Shown: one piece after another, positions 1 to 12,500 of the stretch
Layout of the letters: each line of letters starts with the position of its first letter
Numbering within the stretch: position 1 is the stretch's first letter
IMG/VR virus record: IMGVR_UViG_3300043410_001074
Span: 1-20,014 of that record
DNA: 20,014 bases
Direction: 5' to 3' (one strand)
Source: a virus
Translations under genes and position numbers: made by a program
Notes under the pieces: generated by a model
What the model saw: only the letters and a program-made list of their open reading frames with translations
What the model was told of the DNA's origin: nothing
Databases searched by the model: none

Positions 1-603
1 AAAGAGGATCTTAGACTTAGGTAGTTTAGGGGTATTCTTAAAATCCTTACCTTCCACACTACGTCCCACAAATCCAACATAGGTGCTACCGTCTGGTGTC
101 TGCTGAGGAATGGTAACCATATCCTGTTTCTCACTGTACCCCAGAGAAAACTTCCTCATTGAATCCTTGGTGATTCTGCGTCCCTCAAAATATCGAATTG
201 CTCTTGGTGATTCTAGAGCCTGAGTATTGAGACGCTTAATCATAATCTCGTCAAAGGGAACAAAGTCTGGCCTTACCTCAAGCATCTTATCAATGCTGTC
301 AGTAATGTCTACGTCTGTCTTGGCAGAGTCAATAAACCTTCCTGCCTCAAAGAATGTCTTGCCAGTTACATGCATGACGAACTCTGTAAGAGAACGAGAT
401 TCGTGACAGGAGAAGCAGAAGAATGTTCCACGATCCTTACTTACCTCGCCTGCTGGCGTGCGGTAGTTTGCGTGGTATGGACAGAAGATTAGATAGTCTG
501 AATCTACTTCTGATTCGATATTGATTCCAGACCCGTTGATGACTCGCCTGATCTGTTCTGCTGAGTATAAAGTGGTCTGTTCTTGTCTAAACCGTCGATA
601 CAT
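1..603 (-). CDS. DnaG-type DNA primase, N-terminal part (cut by the window edge)
   Basis: This would make RNA primers on the lagging strand and work with the helicase encoded at 3772-4983. The 201 codons visible run off the left edge without a stop. A CHC2-type zinc finger is clear: Cys41-x2-His44, then Cys63-x2-Cys66, in the motifs CPYH and CFSC. Further on, GFVGR followed by FKNTPKLPKSKILF (residues 177-201) fits the start of the DnaG catalytic core, which has a similar 'GR ... PKYLNSP ... LY' stretch. The Toprim domain should lie outside the window. I chose the ATG at 603 because AGAAGG lies about 8 bases before it and no other common start codon occurs before the zinc finger. The start overlaps the upstream gene by 100 bases, which is unusually long and suggests translational coupling. 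Family call is firm; the exact start is less so. Confidence 0.9.
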   Translation of the reverse strand, partial: MYRRFRQEQTTLYSAEQIRRVINGSGINIESEVDSDYLIFCPYHANYRTPAGEVSKDRGTFFCFSCHESRSLTEFVMHVTGKTFFEAGRFIDSAKTDVDITDSIDKMLEVRPDFVPFDEIMIKRLNTQALESPRAIRYFEGRRITKDSMRKFSLGYSEKQDMVTIPQQTPDGSTYVGFVGRSVEGKDFKNTPKLPKSKILF

Positions 604-839
604 GCGGCTGCCTTCTTTCCAATAAATGATCCGTATACGCTCAATATAAATTCGTAATAATTACCTGTATATGATAGCGACCAATCTGGCTCTATGTCAA
701 TACGAATGACGTATCCTTCGTCTCTCATAGAATCAGATAATAGTCTAATATATTCTTCTTTCATGCGTGGAATAAGGCGGTCATCATGAATCTGACCATC
801 TAAACTAAATCTCTTTATTCTTTTGTGCATGAAACTCAT
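504..839 (-). CDS. Conserved-looking phage protein of unknown function upstream of primase
   Basis: I do not recognise a named family. The 111-residue product is charged and soluble-looking, with no membrane segment or signal peptide. The N-terminal half (RIKRFSLDG, then DDRLIPRMKEEYIRLL) looks like a compact alpha/beta domain, ending around the strand-like EFILSVYGSFIGKK. The last 33 residues are polar and are encoded in DNA that also encodes the N-terminus of the primase in another frame, so this tail may be little constrained. The ATG at 839 lies 7 bases downstream of a TATAAT box with no Shine-Dalgarno sequence, which fits a leaderless start; a second in-frame ATG at 830 is possible. Position directly before the primase suggests a replication-associated role, but this is inference only. 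Confidence 0.75.
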   Translation of the reverse strand: MSFMHKRIKRFSLDGQIHDDRLIPRMKEEYIRLLSDSMRDEGYVIRIDIEPDWSLSYTGNYYEFILSVYGSFIGKKAAACIDGLDKNRPLYTQQNRSGESSTGLESISNQK

Positions 840-846
840 GTAACAA

Positions 847-852
847 ATTATA
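847..852 (-). promoter_or_regulatory. Putative -10 box for the primase operon
   Basis: TATAAT on the minus strand ends 7 bases before the ATG at 839, so a transcript starting at the usual distance would begin at or next to the start codon. No convincing -35 box lies 16 to 18 bases upstream; a TTGATA at 866-871 is too close (13 bases). It fills the short gap between the collagen-like fibre gene and the 111-residue gene. Confidence 0.5.
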
Positions 853-875
853 CAGGATTATCTTATATCAAAATG

Positions 876-1544
876 TTAGCCAATTTGATTGACTGTAATG
901 ATGGTAGATGGAATTACTGGACCACCCATTGAACCCGTATTGTGTTCAAGGACAATATTGTGATTATCTGTAGCCCAATAAATTTCTACAAAATCTTCTG
1001 CCTGTAATTCAATAAAGAAGTTCCATGCCGCAACAATATATGGACTGTTGGTATTTACGCTTACACGAGTATTGGTATCTGGAACTTGCTGACCATTCTT
1101 TACCAACCAGATTTCTGCGGTAGTTCCATTACCGCCACCGCCACGATTATGCAACTGGAATGAGAAGGCAAAGTTATACTTTCCAGCATTATCAGCCTTT
1201 AGTTGAGTGTTATTTACAACAGAAAATCCGCTAGTAATATCTTGTTCTCTGACTAAAACTGGCTGACCAACAGATACTGTGGTTACTACCTGATCCTGAA
1301 TGTCATACCAAGATCCGTATGCGCCGAATCCTCCTGCTGGACCCGTATTTCCCTGGATGCCCTGAATTCCTTGAATACCCTGCTCACCCTGAATTCCCTG
1401 CTCTCCTTGAATTCCCTGCTCACCAATATTTCCCTGAATACCCTGAATTCCTGGAACTCCTTGAAGTCCTTGTGGTCCAGGTGGGCCTGCTGGTCCTGGA
1501 ATTCCAGTATCCCCAGTCTCAACTGGATTATAAAATCTAGCCAT
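876..1544 (-). CDS. Collagen-like tail fibre / adhesin with C-terminal trimeric jelly-roll domain
   Basis: Predicted virion fibre that probably contacts the host surface. Residues 11-73 are 21 uninterrupted Gly-X-Y triplets rich in GIQ and GEQ, the signature of a collagen triple helix, which implies a homotrimer. Residues 77-222 form a beta-rich domain with GKYNFAFSFQLHN, then AEIWLVKNGQQVPDTNT, and a hydrophobic end TIITVNQI. This matches the C1q/TNF-like head found at the tips of many phage and cyanophage fibres, where it both trimerises and binds ligand. The gene overlaps the upstream 97-residue gene by 8 bases and has only a weak AGG upstream of its ATG, so translation is probably coupled. 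It is the last member of the adhesin block. Glu and Gln, not hydroxyproline sites, dominate the Y positions, as is usual in bacterial and phage collagens. Confidence 0.9.
   Translation of the reverse strand: MARFYNPVETGDTGIPGPAGPPGPQGLQGVPGIQGIQGNIGEQGIQGEQGIQGEQGIQGIQGIQGNTGPAGGFGAYGSWYDIQDQVVTTVSVGQPVLVREQDITSGFSVVNNTQLKADNAGKYNFAFSFQLHNRGGGGNGTTAEIWLVKNGQQVPDTNTRVSVNTNSPYIVAAWNFFIELQAEDFVEIYWATDNHNIVLEHNTGSMGGPVIPSTIITVNQIG
1326..1514 (-). repeat. Gly-X-Y coding repeat (collagen stalk)
   Basis: A 9-base and 18-base periodicity encodes GIQGEQ and GIQGIQ units. Such repeats change length easily by recombination or slippage, which would change the length of the stalk. Confidence 0.9.
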
Positions 1545-1830
1545 TGTGTGAAACCTGTTCTAAGCCAAGTTCAATTACTGCAACTTCTGAATCATTTTCT
1601 GAAGTAACTGCATAGAGAACTTCTCCAGCACGCAATTCTACTGACCAAGCAGCGTGGGGGATAAGTCGATATCCATAATCGCCAATGGAAACCCCTTCAC
1701 CACCAATATAAACATAGGCGGTATCTGAGATATTCTGAATTGTAATATCTCTTCCTGTGTGATTTCCAGTCGCAGAAACTGCGACGGCATTTGTATCATT
1801 TAGCACAACGTGCTTGTGTGTGACTGCCAT
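1537..1830 (-). CDS. Small beta-rich phage structural protein, probably virion-associated
   Basis: The 97-residue product has no cysteine or membrane segment and reads as alternating beta strands: ITIQNISDTAYVYIGG, then a turn, then WSVELRAGEVLYAVTS, then a hydrophobic strand VAVIEL. Small proteins with this pattern are often encoded beside phage fibre or head-decoration genes, but I cannot assign a named family. It has the strongest ribosome binding site in the window (GGGGAGGAAG, 1833-1842) and its own extended -10 box, which suggests high expression, as expected for a protein present in many copies per virion. It could be a decoration or head-fibre protein, or a collar between fibre parts. 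It overlaps the collagen-like gene downstream by 8 bases. Confidence 0.75.
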   Translation of the reverse strand: MAVTHKHVVLNDTNAVAVSATGNHTGRDITIQNISDTAYVYIGGEGVSIGDYGYRLIPHAAWSVELRAGEVLYAVTSENDSEVAVIELGLEQVSHNG

Positions 1831-1832
1831 AA

Positions 1833-1842
1833 CTTCCTCCCC
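1833..1842 (-). promoter_or_regulatory. Strong Shine-Dalgarno site for the 97-residue protein
   Basis: GGGGAGGAAG is placed 2 bases before the ATG at 1830, with its GGAGG core 5 bases before it. It stands out because most adhesin-block neighbours have weak or no Shine-Dalgarno sequence. Confidence 0.75.
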
Positions 1843-1866
1843 GTTAAACGCTTTTGCGTCTTAACG
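1842..1866 (-). promoter_or_regulatory. Inverted repeat at the 5' end of the 97-residue gene transcript
   Basis: On the minus strand CGTTAAGACGC, a loop AAAA, then GCGTTTAACG; ten pairs with one bulged base (position 1860). It lies between the -10 box (1869-1874) and the ribosome binding site. As RNA it could be a stem-loop at the very 5' end that protects the message; as DNA it could be an operator. There is no U-rich tail, so it is not a normal intrinsic terminator. Confidence 0.6.
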
Positions 1867-1868
1867 TT

Positions 1869-1877
1869 AGTATACCA
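1869..1877 (-). promoter_or_regulatory. Putative extended -10 promoter for the 97-residue and collagen-like genes
   Basis: TGGTATACT on the minus strand fits an extended -10 element (TGN followed by a TATAAT-like box) and lies immediately after the stop codon of the lectin gene. No good -35 box is visible. It would drive the 97-residue gene and the collagen-like fibre. Confidence 0.5.
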
Positions 1878-2477
1878 CTAAAAACCGTCTACAGCATTAC
1901 TTGCGTTGTAGGAACAGTTTACTATTGGGAATGGATACCAACCTTGTTCTTCAAAATTATATTCCATATTAAATGTTTCTGCTCCATTGGATTCACCAAA
2001 CATTGCTCTAATTGGATACCAAAGGTTGTAGTTGAGTGCAAATACATCAGTGGACTCTATGGTCGTAGTTCCATGAAGTCCACCATTATTGATATCAACA
2101 TTAGAGATTGATGAACCAGTCAGCGCATCTGTACCAATCCAGAAATATGAAGAGTCGTCGCTAGTTGTTCTAAACTTAGTTCTTCCGTTTCCTGGAGGAG
2201 AAAAGTATCCTGTCCACATTAAACTAAAATCGTCTTCAGAGTTTGTGCTGAATGCAAAATCAGTATCTTGTCCAGCAGATGCTGGGCTTGCTGCAAGTAA
2301 TCCAGCAATGTCATCAGCAAAATAATAATTATACTTTCTTCTCCAAAGACCACTTACTGGACTTCCTGGAATGGATGAGAATGATATTCCTGAACCTGGG
2401 TCTACTCCTGCTCCCCAGCCTCCACCGCCAGAATTAGTGTATATGGATGTTCCGATAATAGACTGAATCATTGTCAT
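1878..2477 (-). CDS. Putative GLEYA/PA14-like carbohydrate-binding adhesin
   Basis: Likely a receptor-binding virion protein that recognises sugars on the host. After a glycine-rich start (residues 17-24), residues about 45-175 follow the pattern of the GLEYA/PA14 lectin fold: FSLMWTGYFSPPGNGRTKF (84-102), the paired acidic residues Asp107-Asp108, YFWIG (111-115), and Tyr154-Pro-Ile-Arg157. In GLEYA domains of fungal adhesins the corresponding parts are 'GYF ... G.Y.F', a DD that binds calcium, 'W.G' and 'YPIR'. The start at 2477 is 2 bases after the stop of the upstream fibre gene and has no good Shine-Dalgarno sequence, so it is probably translated by coupling; the ATG at 2471 is an alternative. 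Assignment is by motif reading and not by a profile search. Confidence 0.7.
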   Translation of the reverse strand: MTMIQSIIGTSIYTNSGGGGWGAGVDPGSGISFSSIPGSPVSGLWRRKYNYYFADDIAGLLAASPASAGQDTDFAFSTNSEDDFSLMWTGYFSPPGNGRTKFRTTSDDSSYFWIGTDALTGSSISNVDINNGGLHGTTTIESTDVFALNYNLWYPIRAMFGESNGAETFNMEYNFEEQGWYPFPIVNCSYNASNAVDGF

Positions 2478-2479
2478 GA

Positions 2480-3751
2480 TTAGTCAATCGCCAATCCTGC
2501 ACCGCTAAGCATCCACTTGTTTGGACCAATCTTTAGCAAGGTAGCCATGGAGTTATTTGGAATGTAGAACCACTCTGAAGTCTGGTCATATCCAGCACCC
2601 CATACCTCTGTAAATCCGCTATCGGTGGGACGAATGTATGTCCAACTATTTCCACTTACTACAGTAATTGCTGATCCAATTGGGAAGTTTACCTGAGCAT
2701 CTGTTGGAACGTATACTGTATATCCATCTCCATCATTCTTGTAAACATGCTTACCAATATCAGTTAACTGTAGTGTGTAGTCATTATAATCGCCTTGGTA
2801 ATTCTGGGGAATGAATCCACTTGCTGTATCCTGAACAGATCCATCACCAAATACGATACCGCTTGGGTTTCCAGACTTGTTCAACTTAGTTCTGAGCATT
2901 TCCCATGAACCACCGTTTTCTTCACCCCAGTTAGTGAATTCTACCTTGTAGTATTCCTTAGCAGCAACATCAAGCATGATGTACTGCTTCTCTGTAATAT
3001 AGTTTCCAAGTCCTCCAGTTACTGGGAAGAGTGGATGATACTCTCTTGTCTCAAAGTTTTCAATATTCTCCCAGCCCTCAACATTCCAAAGGACACCTGC
3101 TGGGCTAGAATTTGGATTCCACTCAGTCTCTGTCAACTGATTGTAAATTCCACCAGCAGATTCTCTCTTGAGATGAACAAACTCAGATACATTACATGCT
3201 GCATCTTCCCAACCACTTGAGTAATAATCAATTTCCTGTGGAATAAAGATCTGCTGGCGAGTATATGAGAAGCCACCAAACTTGTCTACAGAATTATTGT
3301 TGGCTCCGCCGCCACCCTGTGCTGCCTGCTGCCAAAAATGGAACTGAACCTTATAATACTTATTATTAATCATGTCGTGCATGACTAACTTGCTAAGACC
3401 TGTATCAATAATGTTTGTACCAACTTGGTTTTGCAATGCGCTTCTGAAAGAAGTGTAAGATCTATCTGCAACCTGATCAAGATTGTCCCAACCCTCTGAG
3501 TTCCACTCTGTACCCGCTGGACTTGTATTGCTGCTATATGTTGTTTCTTCTGCAATATTAATAAGTCCACCACTATTAAGTCTAGTAATCTTAAGACCTG
3601 TGTCGATCTCGTCAATAAGTTCTACGCCTGATGGCTTGCGGAAAGTAACTGGCTTGCCAATTAGATGCTTATTGGTTCCAACAATATAGGTTGCTGGATA
3701 TGTTCCAGTTGGTTCTGGAATCTCGCGGGGGGCTGGTGTAATAATAGTCAT
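2480..3751 (-). CDS. Tail fibre / receptor-binding protein with an internal duplication
   Basis: The 423-residue product has three parts. Residues 1-58 are a short N-terminal section. Residues about 60-165 and 199-292 are two copies of one domain: both begin with GG, continue with an SPAG-x-x-WN-x-EGW motif (77-88 and 216-227), and later have YYKV followed by a short hydrophobic strand (132-137 and 267-272). Residues about 299-311 (GIVFGDGSVQDTA) match a linker common before phage fibre tips, and 315-423 resemble a fibre C-terminal domain known from cyanophages: YTLQLTDIGKHVY, then FPIGSAITVV, then ATLLKIGPNKWMLSG. The ATG lies 6 bases after TGATATAAT with no Shine-Dalgarno sequence, so the start may be leaderless. 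It begins the adhesin block immediately after the helicase in the genome's minus-strand order. Confidence 0.8.
   Translation of the reverse strand: MTIITPAPREIPEPTGTYPATYIVGTNKHLIGKPVTFRKPSGVELIDEIDTGLKITRLNSGGLINIAEETTYSSNTSPAGTEWNSEGWDNLDQVADRSYTSFRSALQNQVGTNIIDTGLSKLVMHDMINNKYYKVQFHFWQQAAQGGGGANNNSVDKFGGFSYTRQQIFIPQEIDYYSSGWEDAACNVSEFVHLKRESAGGIYNQLTETEWNPNSSPAGVLWNVEGWENIENFETREYHPLFPVTGGLGNYITEKQYIMLDVAAKEYYKVEFTNWGEENGGSWEMLRTKLNKSGNPSGIVFGDGSVQDTASGFIPQNYQGDYNDYTLQLTDIGKHVYKNDGDGYTVYVPTDAQVNFPIGSAITVVSGNSWTYIRPTDSGFTEVWGAGYDQTSEWFYIPNNSMATLLKIGPNKWMLSGAGLAID
2876..3574 (-). repeat. Duplicated domain inside the 423-residue fibre
   Basis: Copy 1 is at about 3257-3574 and copy 2 at about 2876-3157. 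They share the SPAG-x-x-WN-x-EGW core and the YYKV strand but have diverged along most of their length, so this is an old protein-level duplication and not a recent DNA repeat. Confidence 0.7.
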
Positions 3752-3757
3752 GAAATC

Positions 3758-3766
3758 ATTATATCA
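3758..3766 (-). promoter_or_regulatory. Putative extended -10 promoter, leaderless type, for the 423-residue fibre
   Basis: TGATATAAT on the minus strand ends 6 bases before the ATG at 3751. It sits in the 20-base gap after the helicase stop codon. No recognisable -35 box is seen, which is tolerated by extended -10 promoters. Confidence 0.6.
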
Positions 3767-3771
3767 TTTTT

Positions 3772-4983
3772 TTACTCAAAGTCCTTGTAAACAAAGCGAC
3801 CTGAGTCAAAGTCAACCTGAACGACGAACTCTCCAAGGAAGCCGTTACGGTTCTTTCTGAATACCGCCTCAAGAACATCGCTGTTAGCGGCACGACCAAG
3901 TGCTAGAAGCCAGTCAGCATCATAGGCAATCTGTCGTGACCATGAAGTCTGACCAAGCGTGGGAACGCTGTTCATATCAGTAACGTCATCGGGGGTTGCA
4001 GATGAGATAGCCACAATAGGCATTTCCTCGCTGATAGCAAGCAACTTTAGTTCACGACTGAGGTTCTTCATCTTGACGACCTCATTATCAGTTCTCTGGT
4101 TGGCAGACATTAGGTTTAGGTAATCTACGAATACAATGTCTGGCTTGTACTGATCAATCTTTCCACGCAGAACGGATGGGGTTACCTCACCAATACCTTC
4201 GTTGGAAATGATATGAATGCTTGGCTTACCATCAAATGTCTTATGCATCCACTTCTTGAACATATCAATCTCTACGTCACCACGAGACAACTTGCGATGA
4301 CTCCACATACCCTGACCAATGATTGTGTAGACACGGTTTCTTACTTCTGCCTCCGTCATTTCCAGCGATACGATAAGAGGGCTCTTGCCATTACGCCAAG
4401 CCTGTACAGCAAGGTACAGAGCCATCCATGACTTTCCAATGGCTGGGTAGGCAAGAAGAACACCAAACTGTCCTGGGGTAATTCCTGCTGGAAGATAGTT
4501 GTCAAACCCTGCTAGACCAGTGTAGATACCATGAGTACCACTTTCCTGTAGACGCTTGATATTCTCAAAGTAAGCAACAGCATCATCCACATCTGAAACA
4601 TCTAGATCTCGTACTGTGGAGGTAATGCGCTTAAGGTTTGCTGTCTCTCCAATGAGACGATCAAGAGCCTCATTAGCCTTGCCGTCCTGAACATCTGTTG
4701 CAGCAGCACGCAACATTACCTTGACATTATCATTAAGATACTCTGTGCGTAGTTCATCAAGATGGTGCTTCGTAGCACCAGTATCAGCAGTATAGTCAAA
4801 GTCACGAAACTTCTGCTTGACAACATCCACTGGAGGCGTTGTCTGATTCTGCTCATAGTAATTGCGAATAAAGTCCCACACATCATTGTGCGTTCTAAGA
4901 AGTGTGTCTACATTTGCCTGTAGCAAAACATGCGTCTGCTTATCATTTAGGACCGCAGATAGGGTCTTTGCCTCAAGATTCAT
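3772..4983 (-). CDS. DnaB-type replicative DNA helicase
   Basis: Hexameric helicase that unwinds the fork during phage replication, presumably with the primase at 1-603. Residues 1-115 form a DnaB-like N-terminal helical domain. The RecA-like motor has Walker A A178-YPAI-GKS185, Walker B IVFVDYLNLM (283-292, Asp287), a typical DnaB SLEMT (206-210), and a late RKNRNG (376-381) like the arginine-finger and DNA-binding end of the family. QIAYDADWLLAL (351-362) is the equivalent of DnaB 'IEQDADVV'. One oddity: the motif-3 stretch, usually 'LSQLNR', reads ISSATP here, so the conserved glutamine is serine. The length of 403 is a little short for DnaB (about 450) but usual for phages. The ribosome binding site is AAAGGAG, and the gene overlaps the 103-residue gene upstream by 11 bases. 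Confidence 0.93.
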   Translation of the reverse strand: MNLEAKTLSAVLNDKQTHVLLQANVDTLLRTHNDVWDFIRNYYEQNQTTPPVDVVKQKFRDFDYTADTGATKHHLDELRTEYLNDNVKVMLRAAATDVQDGKANEALDRLIGETANLKRITSTVRDLDVSDVDDAVAYFENIKRLQESGTHGIYTGLAGFDNYLPAGITPGQFGVLLAYPAIGKSWMALYLAVQAWRNGKSPLIVSLEMTEAEVRNRVYTIIGQGMWSHRKLSRGDVEIDMFKKWMHKTFDGKPSIHIISNEGIGEVTPSVLRGKIDQYKPDIVFVDYLNLMSANQRTDNEVVKMKNLSRELKLLAISEEMPIVAISSATPDDVTDMNSVPTLGQTSWSRQIAYDADWLLALGRAANSDVLEAVFRKNRNGFLGEFVVQVDFDSGRFVYKDFE

Positions 4984-5284
4984 TTAGCCACTCCTTTGCC
5001 TTCTGGCGCATCTCTGCACGGAACTCTTCATCGGCTTTCTTTGCCTGCATAGATGATAGCAGGCGATCAACATTCTGACAATAACCCTTCCACGTTGGAC
5101 GAGGGTTAATTGTAAAGTAGTAATCCATTGCACTAGTTAGTTCTGGATCATCATAGGATTCAAGAAGATCGTCTGCTGCCCACTGCTCCTTATGCTTGTT
5201 AAGGGTTTGCAATGGGATGCCATTATCCTTGCACTTCTTCTCAAACTTACCAATAAGTGCGAATCTAAACTTACGATCTGACAT
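4973..5284 (-). CDS. Small protein coupled to the helicase; helicase loader candidate
   Basis: No recognised family. The 103 residues are mostly helical and charged, with KFRFALIGKFEKKCKD at the start, an aromatic central part (MDYYFTINPRPTWKGYCQNVDRL cut here as MDYYFTINPRPTWKGY), and a strongly charged C-terminal helix (KKADEEFRAEMRQKAKEW). No Walker motif and no zinc ligands in a recognisable spacing. The gene overlaps the helicase start by 11 bases and its own ribosome binding site (AAGGA) runs into the stop codon of the gene before it, so it is tightly coupled on both sides. Phages that encode DnaB-type helicases often carry a small loader or adaptor gene immediately upstream, which makes this a plausible loader; that is inference from position. 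Confidence 0.8.
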   Translation of the reverse strand: MSDRKFRFALIGKFEKKCKDNGIPLQTLNKHKEQWAADDLLESYDDPELTSAMDYYFTINPRPTWKGYCQNVDRLLSSMQAKKADEEFRAEMRQKAKEWLNES

Positions 5285-5292
5285 GATAATCC

Positions 5293-5478
5293 TTATACAT
5301 AAATAGTGATATAGAAGATCTTCTCATCTTCAAGGTAATTAACTGATGATGCTGACCACCAATTAATCTTGTTCTTCTTTAGCAACTTTGCCATGTTCTT
5401 GAGTGTCTTTGTGGGTGTCTCTCCATATGCCACAAATACACGGCATTCCTCATTTACTGCTTCATATGCTGTGCTCAT
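5293..5478 (-). CDS. Small protein of unknown function (61 residues)
   Basis: Not recognised. The sequence alternates strand-like and helical parts: CRVFVAYGETPTKTLKNMAKLLKKN, read in two pieces as a strand CRVFVAYG and a basic helix TKTLKNMAKLLKKN, followed by WWSASSVNYL and a final strand KIFYITIYV. This beta-alpha-beta-beta order is compatible with a small ferredoxin-like or double-stranded-RNA-binding-like fold, but there are no diagnostic residues. The ATG shares bases with the stop of the gene before it (ATGA) and a GAGAGGA site lies 7 bases upstream, which supports a genuine coupled gene. It belongs to the operon that leads to the helicase. Confidence 0.65.
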   Translation of the reverse strand: MSTAYEAVNEECRVFVAYGETPTKTLKNMAKLLKKNKINWWSASSVNYLEDEKIFYITIYV

Positions 5479-5672
5479 GCCAGTTCCTCTCTAGCCTCAT
5501 TCAACTTCTCAATAAGTTGATTCTCTACAAAATGATACACACGATCAGAGGCTTCCTTAGCACTCTCATCCTCATGCTTATAATCTGTTACCGAACAGTC
5601 AATACGAATATTCTGGAAGTTACCAGTATTAAGCGTATATCCCAACGTCCATGAAATTTTAGTAGGCTCCAT
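5475..5672 (-). CDS. Small conserved-looking phage protein of unknown function (65 residues)
   Basis: First gene of the small-gene and helicase operon. The N-terminal part GYTLNTGNFQNIRID (11-25) reads as two strands joined by a turn, then an acidic loop, then a long helix RVYHFVENQLIEKLNEAREE. The 'GYTxNxGNF/YxxxRID' pattern is one I associate with small proteins of unknown function in the replication regions of several phages, but I cannot name a family with certainty. The start has a good AAAGGA site 8 bases upstream and lies about 20 bases from the predicted transcription start, so it is translated in the usual way, unlike the leaderless genes in this window. Confidence 0.7.
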   Translation of the reverse strand: MEPTKISWTLGYTLNTGNFQNIRIDCSVTDYKHEDESAKEASDRVYHFVENQLIEKLNEAREELA

Positions 5673-5699
5673 TGGAGTCCTTTCTGTAGTCGTGGCACA

Positions 5700-5729
5700 A
5701 GCGTACCATTATCGGTACGGTCTTGTCAA
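5700..5729 (-). promoter_or_regulatory. Putative -35/-10 promoter of the small-gene and helicase operon
   Basis: On the minus strand a perfect TTGACA (5724-5729) is followed, after 18 bases, by an extended -10 TGG-TACGCT (box at 5700-5705). It precedes the 65-residue gene, and everything down to the helicase stop follows without a gap larger than 8 bases. It is the only promoter here with a consensus -35 box. Confidence 0.65.
5702..5719 (-). promoter_or_regulatory. Perfect palindrome overlapping the promoter; operator candidate
   Basis: CGTACC, six bases ATTATC, then GGTACG (as read on the plus strand): two perfect 6-base arms with a 6-base centre. It covers the -10 box and spacer, the ideal place for a dimeric repressor to block RNA polymerase. 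The helix-turn-helix protein encoded just upstream (5734-6270) is a candidate binder. Confidence 0.6.
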
Positions 5730-5733
5730 TACC

Positions 5734-6270
5734 TTAGACGGTTTCGGAGAAAACGGGAATGAATCTTCCGTTCTCGTCCTTTAGATAGTAGATCATACCA
5801 TCACCCATTGCATACCGCAACTCTTGCTCTGTGGGTGTTTTGTTATTGGTAATCAAACCATCTTTTCTTTCTCTGCCCATATGTGTCTGAGCCATGAGAT
5901 TCCTTGCCTCAAAAATCTGATCTTCAGAATAATAACTCATATGATGAAAGGCACGTTCACCGTTTGGCAATTCTCCCATAGGTTCTGGTAAAAGTCCCGC
6001 CTTAATTAATCTTGGAATGCTTTTCTTATGATAATTAAGTAATTGCGCTGTTTCAGAAACAGTGTAGGCACGCTTCCTTTTACGCTTGAATTCCACCATC
6101 GTGGTCATCATTTGAATATCTTTGGTACAGTTCCACAAAGTTACCATACCAGAAGCACGACTTACATGTACCATTCGAACTAAATCTCCATCAAGAAACC
6201 ATGTCTTACGAGTAGGTCTGACAATTATCGGGAGATTGAGGCTGCCATCCTCATTTTTTCCATTCGCCAT
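5734..6270 (-). CDS. Helix-turn-helix DNA-binding protein (MerR/excisionase-like)
   Basis: Probably a regulator or DNA-organising protein. Residues 1-60 form a mostly beta N-terminal part (WFLDGDLVRMVHVSR, then VTLWNCTKD). A basic stretch KRKRKR (62-67) leads into a helix-turn-helix: AYTVSETAQLLNYHKKSI (68-85) and LIKAGLLPEP (88-97), the layout of MerR- and excisionase-type winged helices, in which the second helix enters the major groove and a wing follows. YYSEDQIFEARNLM (113-126) corresponds to the family's usual 'F...DI..L' helix. The C-terminal 50 residues are not recognised. Its start lies inside the zinc ribbon gene (46-base overlap), with GGAG somewhat far upstream. It lies immediately before a promoter with a perfect palindrome, so autoregulation or control of the helicase operon is possible. 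Confidence 0.78.
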   Translation of the reverse strand: MANGKNEDGSLNLPIIVRPTRKTWFLDGDLVRMVHVSRASGMVTLWNCTKDIQMMTTMVEFKRKRKRAYTVSETAQLLNYHKKSIPRLIKAGLLPEPMGELPNGERAFHHMSYYSEDQIFEARNLMAQTHMGRERKDGLITNNKTPTEQELRYAMGDGMIYYLKDENGRFIPVFSETV

Positions 6271-6416
6271 AGTATTGCCGCTTCTCCATTATTCTTATCA
6301 AAGTCGTGATAAAACTTTCTGTATCCACAACGAATGCAGAATACCTCTAAATGATTGTGTTCAGTAAAGGCTCTGTCAATAAACATTCTGCCTCTGCATC
6401 GTGGGCATTTTAACAT
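6225..6416 (-). CDS. Small zinc ribbon protein
   Basis: The 63-residue product has two CxxC knuckles, Cys4-Pro-Arg-Cys7 and Cys27-Ile-Arg-Cys30, the second followed by GYRKF. This is a zinc ribbon as found in many small phage and transcription-related proteins. The basic character (RCRGRMF, RKF, RMEKMRM) fits binding to nucleic acid, but the role is unknown. The gene has no Shine-Dalgarno sequence; its ATG is 9 bases after TGATATAAT, so the message would have almost no leader. It overlaps the helix-turn-helix gene downstream by 46 bases, and the C-terminal helix is encoded within that overlap. It opens the non-structural block after the tail genes. Confidence 0.75.
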   Translation of the reverse strand: MLKCPRCRGRMFIDRAFTEHNHLEVFCIRCGYRKFYHDFDKNNGEAAILWRMEKMRMAASISR

Positions 6417-6425
6417 GATGGCGAA

Positions 6426-6434
6426 ATTATATCA
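6426..6434 (-). promoter_or_regulatory. Putative extended -10 promoter for the zinc ribbon gene
   Basis: TGATATAAT on the minus strand, whose TGA is also the stop codon of the tail gene before it. It ends 9 bases before the ATG at 6416. Same nine bases as at 3758-3766. No -35 box is seen. Confidence 0.55.
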
Positions 6435-6875
6435 CGTTGGGATACCAATAGCCGTGATGTTCACTGTGGTCGTTACCTGACCAGACTTATTGAACTTAAC
6501 AACGCCTTCAATACGAGAAGTGGTGATTGATCTAATAACTACTGTTACGTCATCACCAATATCTGACGTACCACGATTAACTACCGTCGCAGTTGCTACT
6601 GGTGGATACTTAAAGTCAGAAGAATATGAGAATGAGAATGCTCTGGTTGTTCCAGCCGTTACGTTTTCGTTATTAACGATATCAACATAGCCAGCAATGA
6701 TTCTTGCTGCTCTTGTCTGGATTACCTGATTTCCTGCGTCTCTTGTGGATACCGTGGTGTAGTTATAGGTTGCTGAGGAGATCTCATTAGAAACCTCGTT
6801 GATAGCATTAGCAATTTGATAGATGTATGTAACGTCTAGAGGTTGTCCACGGTCTGGAAGGGGGATTTTTGCCAT
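6432..6875 (-). CDS. Small tail/fibre protein with a possible H-type-lectin-like domain
   Basis: The N-terminus (KIPLPDRGQPLDVTYIYQ, 3-20) is of a type I associate with phage tail-tip accessory proteins and is followed by a short helical part to about residue 35. Residues 62-145 are a beta sandwich: AFSFSYSSDFKYPPVATATV (79-98), VTVVIRSITTSRIEGVVKF (110-128), and a final strand VNITAIGI (138-145). The order 'F ... PPV ... VxN/IT ... GF/V' resembles H-type lectins (sugar-binding proteins), but no binding residues can be confirmed by eye. The ATG is 6 bases after an extended -10 box and lacks a Shine-Dalgarno sequence, so it may start as a leaderless transcript. It is the last gene of the tail block, so adhesion or fibre attachment is likely. 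Confidence 0.72.
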   Translation of the reverse strand: MAKIPLPDRGQPLDVTYIYQIANAINEVSNEISSATYNYTTVSTRDAGNQVIQTRAARIIAGYVDIVNNENVTAGTTRAFSFSYSSDFKYPPVATATVVNRGTSDIGDDVTVVIRSITTSRIEGVVKFNKSGQVTTTVNITAIGIPT

Positions 6876-6881
6876 AGGGAA

Positions 6882-6911
6882 ATTATACCACTAGAGGGCG
6901 CTTATTGTCGA
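6882..6911 (-). promoter_or_regulatory. Putative promoter for the 147-residue tail gene, leaderless type
   Basis: TCGACA (6906-6911), 18 bases, then TGGTATAAT (box at 6882-6887), ending 6 bases before the ATG at 6875. It has the best -35 match among the leaderless-type promoters here. It would allow this gene to be expressed apart from the tail genes before it. Confidence 0.6.
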
Positions 6912-8824: not shown

Positions 8825-9555
8825 GGGCTTTCTACCAAGTCAATTGTACCATTCGTCAAAATTTGAACCTGGATCTCCTCGCTATCTTCTACTGTATCTA
8901 TCTCTATTACTAAGTCTCCGTTATCATCAAAGTATGGCTCATATACGCCCCGAAGGGATAAATCAATGGCAAATCTTGAGAAATAATCTGTATCATAGGA
9001 GGTGGCAACAATGTTGTTTGGGTTAAAACTTCTTCTAATTGTTGGAAGGTTTTTGATTGGAGCATAGATAACCTCTTGACCATCAATAAGATCTGATCTA
9101 GACATATTTGCTAATTCTGTTGCACCAATATCTTCAAATAATAGATCCGTAATTAAAGCAATCTCAACAGATGAGTCGTCAAATTGAATGATATCACTTG
9201 GTGCTACCTTAAAATTTTTGCTAGTAATATTGGCTGGCTTGTAATTTGGAAGAACTGGTGCTGCCTGGGGAGGAGATGCAACATAAGAGGTTGCACTAGA
9301 ACTATAAGATCCTCCGCTGCTTGTTCCTCCTCCACCACCAGAACCGTTACTTGTAGGAGCGGCTGGTTGTGCTGCTGTGGCGGCATTTGAGTATGCGGCT
9401 ATAACATTATTTACATTTGCGGTAGACGAAGCACTCTTTGAATAGGCTGCGGCTGCTTTAGCATAATTGGCGGCTGCCTCAAAATTTCCTGCCCTTGCTG
9501 CTTCTTCTGCAAGAGCAAGACGTTCATTTACTTTTTGAGTATTTTTTGATGCCAT
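8821..9555 (-). CDS. Tail-associated structural protein with Ala-rich helix and Gly/Ser linker
   Basis: Three parts: an alanine-rich helical N-terminus (residues 8-63, with EEAARAGNFEAAANYAKAAA, like a helical repeat), a flexible Gly/Ser/Thr linker (about 64-92, NGSGGGGGTSSGGSYSSS), and an acidic C-terminal domain (about 110-244). The last contains ELANMSRSDLIDGQEVIYAP (147-166) and ends with strands DLVIEIDTVEDSEEIQVQIL. I do not recognise a named family. It lies between the tail hub and the next tail-tip gene, with a good GGAGG site before its ATG and an ATGA overlap with the next gene. A connector between hub and fibres is a reasonable guess: the helical part could bind the hub and the linker carry the terminal domain. 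Confidence 0.75.
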   Translation of the reverse strand: MASKNTQKVNERLALAEEAARAGNFEAAANYAKAAAAYSKSASSTANVNNVIAAYSNAATAAQPAAPTSNGSGGGGGTSSGGSYSSSATSYVASPPQAAPVLPNYKPANITSKNFKVAPSDIIQFDDSSVEIALITDLLFEDIGATELANMSRSDLIDGQEVIYAPIKNLPTIRRSFNPNNIVATSYDTDYFSRFAIDLSLRGVYEPYFDDNGDLVIEIDTVEDSEEIQVQILTNGTIDLVESP

Positions 9556-9556
9556 A

Positions 9557-12500
9557 TTATACCTCCGCTAAGTGGATTGTTGTTGACACACTGCCACTTT
9601 CCTTTTTGTATTCTATATTATAAACAACAAATCTTGTATTTGAGTCAGTAACAATGTCAATATTATTATTCTTATAATTAACCTGAACAATATCTCCAAG
9701 TTGTAGATGAGGAACACCGAAGGTCACCACGCCAATAGTTTTTCTTGGATAGATTACCTTCTGAATAATCCAATCCATCATTGACTCTGCTGCTGCATCT
9801 GTCTGTACATAAGGTGTTTCAATAGAGAAGTCATTCCTACCATACTTATTTCTGCTATTAAGTACATCAGAGTAGAGTCTTTGATAATTGGCTGCCCCCG
9901 TTGTTCCATTGTAAATGTCTTCTGTAAAATTGCTGTTTTTCTTAAAGAAGTCGTCTACCTTGAGAGAATGAGTTGTGTTTTGTGTAAATGCAATACCTAG
10001 GATTCTCAGATAATTACCGCTAGTATCGTCTAGATTTAGGTTTTTGTCAATGGTATTGAAGATAAGGAATTCTGCTCCATATGATCCAGCCATGAACCCC
10101 GATACAGAATAGCCACGAACCCTATTCAATGTTTCTGCAAGTTTAGCATAAAGTGCTGGGAAAGCCCTATCATATCTAATATTAAAGTATGCTGCTTCAC
10201 GCATGATTGTCCCAAACTCTTCATAGTACAGGCTATATGCTGGAGGATTTTCTGAACTAATGCCTGAAAGATAAGTGTTCTGCACCATGCCGCTTATTGC
10301 ATACTTCTTAATTGCCTCTGATTCTGTGATCAGTTCATCACCAAATATCTTAGAGATTGGCAACTGTAATGCCCTGGCAGTATTTTCTGCAAAATTATCT
10401 GATAGTGCATAAACATTTTCAAACATGAGGCGAGAAGATCCGCGAACAAACAGGGCCATGTTGTTGTATTGAGGCAATGGATTTGTGTCATTGACTACTG
10501 CAATCTGCTTGTTATTAAGATAAAGGAAGAATTGTCTGCTAGTTCCAATATCTAGGTATTCTGCTGATAAATCATAAACGGTTGTCTTGTCGCCTGTTGT
10601 AAGTCTAGATTGAGTTGTAAATTTACCGTCGTCAACAAGAACTTCTGTAAGACCTCTGTAAAGAATCTCTGGAATTGCAACCTTGTTTACTCCAGTTACA
10701 AGACCAATTGGATCAAGATCTGCTGAGGCTATTGTGCCAGAGGATATAGTGTTGTACTGAATTGTTCTTGCGGTAACCGCAGATATAAGAAAGGTTCCAT
10801 TAAGTGCCGCATCAACATCTGTAATAACAATTTGCTCACCCGCAACGAAACTATGATCTCTCAATGTTGTTAGAGTGACTAGAGTTCCAGTTCTTTCTTT
10901 CTTAATAATATCTGCTGTATTCTTTCCTGAAACAACCTTATAGAAAAATACATCTGATATTACAGTTTCACTATCAAGTGATCGAGTTACAGTTCCTCCA
11001 TTTGATGAAGTAGTATTTAGGGTAGAAGTTGTTTGATACTGGAATATCTTTCTGTCTGTAGATATTGATGTAACAATAAACTCTCCATTGAGCGCAGTTG
11101 TTGTGGCAGTCTTATCATTATCATCTACGAGTCCTGAAACAACTACATTTGTCCCTATTTCAAAATTATGCTGTGTCTCTAATGTTACCGTTACCAATCC
11201 GCTAACACAAGTAACAATTGGACTCTTAACAATATTATATCCAGAACTGTTTGAATTATTGTTATATGAAGAAACATTGTTTTGACTAAGTGCCGCTATT
11301 TCAAAGTAATAGCCAACGTTTGTATCCTTATTGAGTCCGAAAGCAATTCCTCCACTACCACCAGTAATTGAAATTTGCTTGCTTGGATCTCCTGATGATA
11401 GTGCGCTAGGAGAATAAATATTGAATGCTCCCAGAGGTGTCTGATCCTGATTAGTTCCAGATTCAATCTTTCCAATGATTCTTAACCTTGTTCCAAAATT
11501 TTTGTATGGCTTGTCAAGTGGCTTATATGCATAGGTGACAAAACTTGCTGGATCAATTTCTTGTGGAAGAGTTGGTCCATTGAATACCAGGGCAGATGTT
11601 TGAACAGATCCAGACTTTGCGGTCTTGTAATAATTAACATCATTTTCTGTAATATTTGTATTTGCCATAAAGTTTTTAATAATGCCATTTCTTGTTGACT
11701 TAATGGCATATGATTGAGAGGTATATGTTTGTCCATTAATAATCTTAGAATTACCCGCCTCTTCTATTCCTGTTTCTGTTGAATAGACAATGCTCTTGTT
11801 TGTATTAAACAAATATTCTTTTGCATTTTGAATAGAACCCTTTACGTTGCTATCGTTAATCCATGATGAGTTAGCATCAATACCAGACATATGTTCAGTT
11901 ATGTCTGTTCCGAATTGACCACGACCGTGTTCTTTAATTATCCCACCCTGAACATTTACATAAATCCTTACTCTTCCAGTTGGATACATCTTTCCATTAA
12001 ATCTTAGATTGGCAAAGTATGCCTGATATTCTTGATTATTGCTAATCCAAACATTGCCAACTCCTGCTACAGAATATTCTACAGCGTCATATCTAATGAT
12101 TTCTCCATTGGCATAAAAATATCCTGCATAATTTCCAAGCCAATAAACGCTTTCTCCAAAATCAATTGCGTTGTTAATTATGTTTCCATCTACAATTGTA
12201 GGAATATCGGCAGTTAGTTTTGTCTTCATTGGCATTGCCGCCAAGGAATATCCTGATGCCTGGGTAGCAGATTGATTAACAGTCTTTGTTAATTCTTTAC
12301 CTGCTACCTCCCAAAGAAGAACTGGTTTATAAACAAAAGTCTTATAATCGTCAATGTATGGCGCTTGAGCAATTGATCCAATTGATTTCTGAATATAACG
12401 AGTGGTGTAGTTAATCTCTCCACCGTTATATACAGTCTTTTCCTGTGATGCAATATTCATGATATTTGGCAAAGCAATCTCTGATCCAACAATCTCTTCT

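Follow-up and report, generated by a model that had tools for sequence, protein, structure and literature searches.

How does a phage gene begin when a -10 box stands only a few bases before its start codon and the start lacks a Shine-Dalgarno (SD) sequence? The question arises at four gene starts in a 20,014-base tailed-phage fragment, the entire IMG/VR record IMGVR_UViG_3300043410_001074 (hereafter the window). Its main genes lie on the minus strand and comprise a tape measure, tail genes, a zinc ribbon, an HTH protein, a DnaB-type helicase, a fibre block and a primase operon; for the helicase and a 111-aa gene, the closest named relatives are Streptomyces phages of Stanwilliamsviridae. Judging from the sequence, we consider it very probable that the boxes are extended -10 promoters used by the host sigma factor, and that they make leaderless mRNAs. 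Leaderless starts would then occur throughout the genomes of a large group of phages, correcting the expectation that phage genes carry an SD, and the start codons and transcript starts of this mostly uncultured group would become predictable from DNA alone.

Four boxed starts in the window

The preliminary description had placed TATAAT 7, 6, 9 and 6 bases before the ATGs at 839, 3751, 6416 and 6875, respectively, and these distances are correct; the first T of the box lies 12 bp from the start codon at 3751 and 6875, 13 at 839 and 15 at 6416. The first box (TATAAT, 847-852, minus strand) forms with its abutting TG the element TGTATAAT (847-854), is laid out as TGTATAAT-TTGTTAC-ATG, and precedes the predicted leaderless 111-aa gene of the primase operon (504-839, minus strand; phrog_17515). 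The second, TGATATAAT (3758-3766, minus strand), lies in the 20 nt that follow the helicase stop codon and is arranged as TGATATAAT-GATTTC-ATG. It precedes a 423-aa gene (2480-3751, minus strand), a probable fibre for which Pfam and PHROG gave no match, whose transcript is predicted to be leaderless with +1 at the A of the ATG; this gene opens a block inserted between the helicase and the 111-aa gene.

The third box (TGATATAAT, 6426-6434, minus strand; TGATATAAT-TTCGCCATC-ATG) contains a TGA that also terminates the upstream 147-aa gene, and precedes a 63-aa zinc-ribbon-like gene (6225-6416, minus strand) with a predicted near-leaderless start, the 3-nt leader reading AUC-AUG. The fourth (TGGTATAAT, 6882-6890, minus strand; TGGTATAAT-TTCCCT-ATG) directly follows an upstream TAG stop and precedes the 147-aa gene itself (6432-6875, minus strand), which ends the tail-gene run and is predicted to be leaderless. 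Of the four boxes, it alone is preceded by a good -35-like element, the hexamer TCGACA (6906-6911, minus strand) 18 nt upstream of the box. The boxes had also been regarded as marks of block borders. This description suits 839 and 3751, but the genes that start at 6416 and 6875 lie next to each other.

The claim that three of the four boxes carry TG one base upstream was confirmed, with 839 as the exception; because its TG abuts TATAAT without a spacer base, the 839 box is not a true extended -10. The motif TGNTATAAT occurs three times in the whole window, and every copy sits in a gap of 15-20 nt ahead of 3751, 6416 or 6875. The reported lack of an SD held as well. Across the 18 starts checked, the longest match to AAGGAGGT was 0, 0, 0 and 3 letters at the four boxed starts, placing them among the weakest, and at least 4 letters at 12 of the 14 others. 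A further TATAAT abuts the ATG of a 244-aa gene with a strong SD (GGAGGTATAATATG, 9553-9561, minus strand); because its spacing is zero, a promoter role for that gene is unlikely.

Could AT-rich intergenic gaps simply yield functionless TATAAT hexamers near ATG codons? The raw counts in the window would allow this, since TATAAT alone stays within shuffle expectation and TATAAT followed by ATG was found 5 times against 3.1 expected, a count reached in 18% of shuffles. At the 18 gene starts, TATAAT 6-9 nt upstream was found 4 times against 0.04 expected (Poisson P about 1e-7).

A spacing peak at the gene starts of related phages

Because the record ends with the window, the genome-wide motif test was performed on relatives. 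Using the helicase and the HTH protein as baits, we collected 101 viral loci, and the spacing test covered 1,026 called genes on 11 contigs, namely the window and 10 related contigs (nine whole or near-whole and part of a tenth). Genes were called by our own procedure as the longest non-overlapping open reading frames, and some gene starts are therefore wrong.

The excess of the motif at gene starts that the preliminary description anticipated took the form of a peak one base wide: TATAAT lies exactly 6 nt before 64 genes, whereas the spacings of 5 and 7 nt account for 2 and 9 genes, respectively, and positions 15-54 nt upstream average 2.35 genes each, so that the distance from the first T peaks at 12. 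The boxed genes number 85 and represent 43 protein families, of which 37 show the 6-nt spacing over the 11 contigs; replication, tail and accessory functions are all represented. The gap upstream of boxed genes has a median of 19 nt, versus 5 nt otherwise. In a set of 20 contigs, most copies of TGNTATAAT within a contig share one strand, and the motif is commoner than its reversed-pattern control. In StarPlatinum and Braelyn, both Stanwilliamsviridae, 6 nt was the only spacing from 0 to 14 nt at which TATAAT preceded a start (4 genes, gp46, gp54, gp64 and gp230, and 2 genes, gp51 and gp61, respectively). In the control phages SPO1 and VR7 (T4-like), which infect other hosts and are both of 40% G+C, none was found at 6 nt before starts. 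An origin by chance is refuted by the peak (64 genes at one position against about 2), by its spread over 37 families and by its absence from two phages of similar G+C; the conservation of the box at orthologous starts argues against it further, and we assign it a practically negligible probability. The data also gave no support to an association of the box with accessory genes inserted recently, families present in at most 3 contigs accounting for 27 of 68 boxed and 225 of 551 unboxed genes (P=0.90).

Orthologous starts retain the box despite changing flanks. Among 67 loci holding both the 111-aa gene and the helicase, 66 have TATAAT close to the 111-aa start, and orthologous boxes at 5-7 nt occur in 66 loci; TATAAT is kept in 55 of the 56 loci in which the helicase is adjacent and in all 11 in which a block is inserted between them, as is the fibre block (876-3751) in the window. 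TATAAT lies no more than 40 nt from the stop of the helicase gene in 5 of these 11 inserted blocks; another two carry TACAAT or TATACT 6 or 5 nt before an ATG, as read by eye. The fibre block of the window also encodes, on the minus strand, a collagen-repeat protein (876-1544) and a GLEYA/PA14-domain protein (1878-2477), which are probably receptor-binding accessories.

A profile built from one 6-nt-spaced gene per family consists of T at -15 (71%), G at -14 (94%), TATAAT at -12 to -7, a free discriminator, a pyrimidine at -1 and A or G at +1; a -35 sought across the families in this profile gave no consistent signal. The pyrimidine at -1 is present at 56 of 62 predicted leaderless ATG starts versus 228 of 578 unboxed ATG starts (P=3e-15), and a pyrimidine at -1 followed by a purine at +1 is the usual pattern of transcription start. 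Start codons at 5-7 nt spacing comprise 73 ATG, 2 GTG and no TTG, compared with 734 ATG, 124 GTG and 168 TTG (16%) among all called genes, and an SD of at least 5 letters was found at 5 of 85 boxed versus 259 of 941 other genes. A TG abutting the box pairs with 7-nt spacing and TGn with 6-nt spacing (P=0.0007), but because mainly one orthologous family carries this pattern, a ruler running from TG to ATG was set aside.

Two families of boxed genes deserve mention. A family of 72-80 aa (L057, L058, L068, L079 and L030) has TATAAT at 6 nt without TGn, together with conserved upstream sequence (TCCAGTGTGGAATGAGTCTA in L057), and might use another variant of the promoter. Proteins of about 180-390 aa (L055, L019, L051 and others), which may be of the 2-oxoglutarate oxygenase type, nearly always start 6 nt after TATAAT.

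Predicted leaderless initiation and its rivals

In the mechanism that we favour, each box would act as an extended -10 promoter (TGNTATAAT, or TGTATAAT at 839), read by the housekeeping RNA polymerase of an actinobacterial host with no need of a -35. A 6-nt spacing would set +1 at the A of the ATG, with 5 or 7 nt tolerated, and a 9-nt spacing would set it at the purine three bases before the ATG; because the spacing places +1 there, the mRNA would begin with AUG or ANN-AUG. Such an mRNA, devoid of an SD, would be translated by the leaderless route that is routine in Actinobacteria. About 18 bp, box and start codon included, would thus form a complete start of both transcription and translation, which fits a 15-20 nt gap, and a cassette of 18 bp should suffice to transcribe and to translate. 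Upstream promoters could also read these genes, and such transcripts would not be leaderless, yet would still offer no SD.

The message of lambda cI from PRM is a phage mRNA that starts at its AUG. Leaderless initiation in lambda was noted by Zheng et al. (PMC3160421), but cI is a single repressor gene, whereas the phages studied here have predicted leaderless starts genome-wide, at replication, tail and accessory genes. The same study described TA-led leaderless genes of Actinobacteria and Deinococcus-Thermus, in which the first T of the TA signal lies about 12 bp before the start and no SD is present (Zheng et al. 2011, PMC3160421). This geometry is that of TATAAT-N6-ATG, although those genes belong to bacterial chromosomes of high-G+C hosts and carry a loose TAnnnT, while the phage genomes carry the full TATAAT, usually with TGn. 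Mycobacterial promoters have no conserved -35 and a purine start usually preceded by a pyrimidine (PMC3898074), and mycobacterial leaderless translation requires RTG (ATG or GTG) at +1 (PMC4633059); the phages share all three traits, the lack of a -35, the pyrimidine-purine step and the restriction to ATG and GTG. TGn occurs in only 7% of mycobacterial TANNNT promoters (PMC3898074), against G at -14 in 94% of our 6-nt families, an indirect comparison given that the 94% derives from boxes selected for TATAAT. The mechanism is thus already established in Actinobacteria, and the phages would be its new users; the literature searched, outside which most subscription journals fall, yielded no account of leaderless initiation as a genome-wide code in phages. 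StarPlatinum and Braelyn show the same order of helicase, small gene and primase together with TATAAT-N6-ATG starts, but have a higher G+C (49-50%), fewer full-consensus boxes and a 111-aa orthologue without a box. With the same starts in these named Streptomyces phages, the leaderless prediction is directly testable in culture.

Might the boxes be real promoters while translation proceeds mainly by reinitiation on read-through polycistronic mRNA, the leaderless product being minor? The genes are co-directional, the gaps between them are short, measuring 15-20 nt before three of the four starts, terminator-like sites are no commoner than in shuffles (5 versus 4.5 expected), and SD-like motifs appear in some 9-nt spacers of relatives (6 of 18). 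Reinitiation would, however, have no use for the exact 6-nt spacing and the pyrimidine at -1, and both the specific depletion of SD at boxed starts and the exclusion of TTG as their start codon run counter to it; we regard this possibility as improbable.

T4 late promoters consist of a short, strong -10-like box with no -35. The boxes resemble them, and two adjoin the genes for the phage HTH and zinc-ribbon proteins, as might be expected of a phage-specific late promoter serving a phage-encoded sigma factor or sigma-remodelling protein, in the manner of T4 late or SPO1 middle and late promoters, rather than the host sigma. We consider this more improbable still: TGNTATAAT is the standard extended -10 of the housekeeping sigma factor, the boxes are not confined to one functional class of genes, and the T4-like control lacks the peak. 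Furthermore, a Pfam search of 12 relatives returned Sigma70 region 2 in none and region 4 only as sub-threshold fragments with no match over the cut-off, in a survey that divergent factors could escape and whose records may be incomplete. Use of the host housekeeping sigma is accordingly the economical and most likely reading of these sequences. The host itself would be actinobacterial because whiB was found in 9 of the 12 relatives (the set searched, distinct from the 20-kb window); in 14 control genomes it matched only in Corynebacterium. Freshwater actinophages were assigned by whiB in the same way (PMC6802176). A search of bacterial genome contigs for relatives of the phage, as a further clue to the host, found none.

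Nine-nucleotide spacing and leadered use of the box

At the 147-aa tail gene, the spacing of the box in most relatives is either 6 nt, with 20 unique TGn sites, or 9 nt, with 18, and 7 and 8 nt are almost absent. Taken together, the 147-aa and 63-aa genes provide 28 unique sites with 9-nt spacing, every one with A at position 7, and three 8-nt sites carry G at position 6, so that a purine stands three bases before the ATG throughout. This suggests a 3-nt leader, ANN-AUG, as the simplest reading of the 9-nt sites. The class is at odds with a strict rule of RTG at +1 (PMC4633059) and counts against our explanation to that extent. The extended -10 leaderless cassette of the preliminary description is supported with qualifications, the 839 box not being a proper extended -10 and 6416, like 9-nt cases generally, appearing to have a 3-nt leader and not a strictly leaderless start.

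The motif TGNTATAAT also lies at least 14 nt upstream of 48 other genes, of which 40 have an SD of at least 4 letters, compared with 11 of 40 predicted leaderless genes; spacings of 11-14 nt are nearly empty. The proposed code for operon starts is consequently borne out by the peak across relatives but is not the sole code: because TGNTATAAT also precedes leadered SD genes, the same promoter has two outputs, of which this code is one. Tentatively, a single -10 box might be put to different modes by spacing alone, with a 5'-AUG at 6 nt, ANN-AUG at 9 nt and an SD leader at 14 nt or more, a scheme that we consider possible but rather doubtful. If true, initiation with the 3-nt leader would form a class of its own, under selection and outside the mycobacterial RTG-at-+1 rule; this conserved class is worth following.

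A leadered start was also observed in the window at a 97-aa gene (1537-1830), where TATACT is followed by a stable hairpin and then by a GGAGG SD (1828-1870, minus strand). The hairpin, directly before GGAGG, has a folding energy of -10.6 kcal/mol (z -3.4). Homologues of this gene in L091, L093 and L094 have a leaderless box in place of the leadered start.
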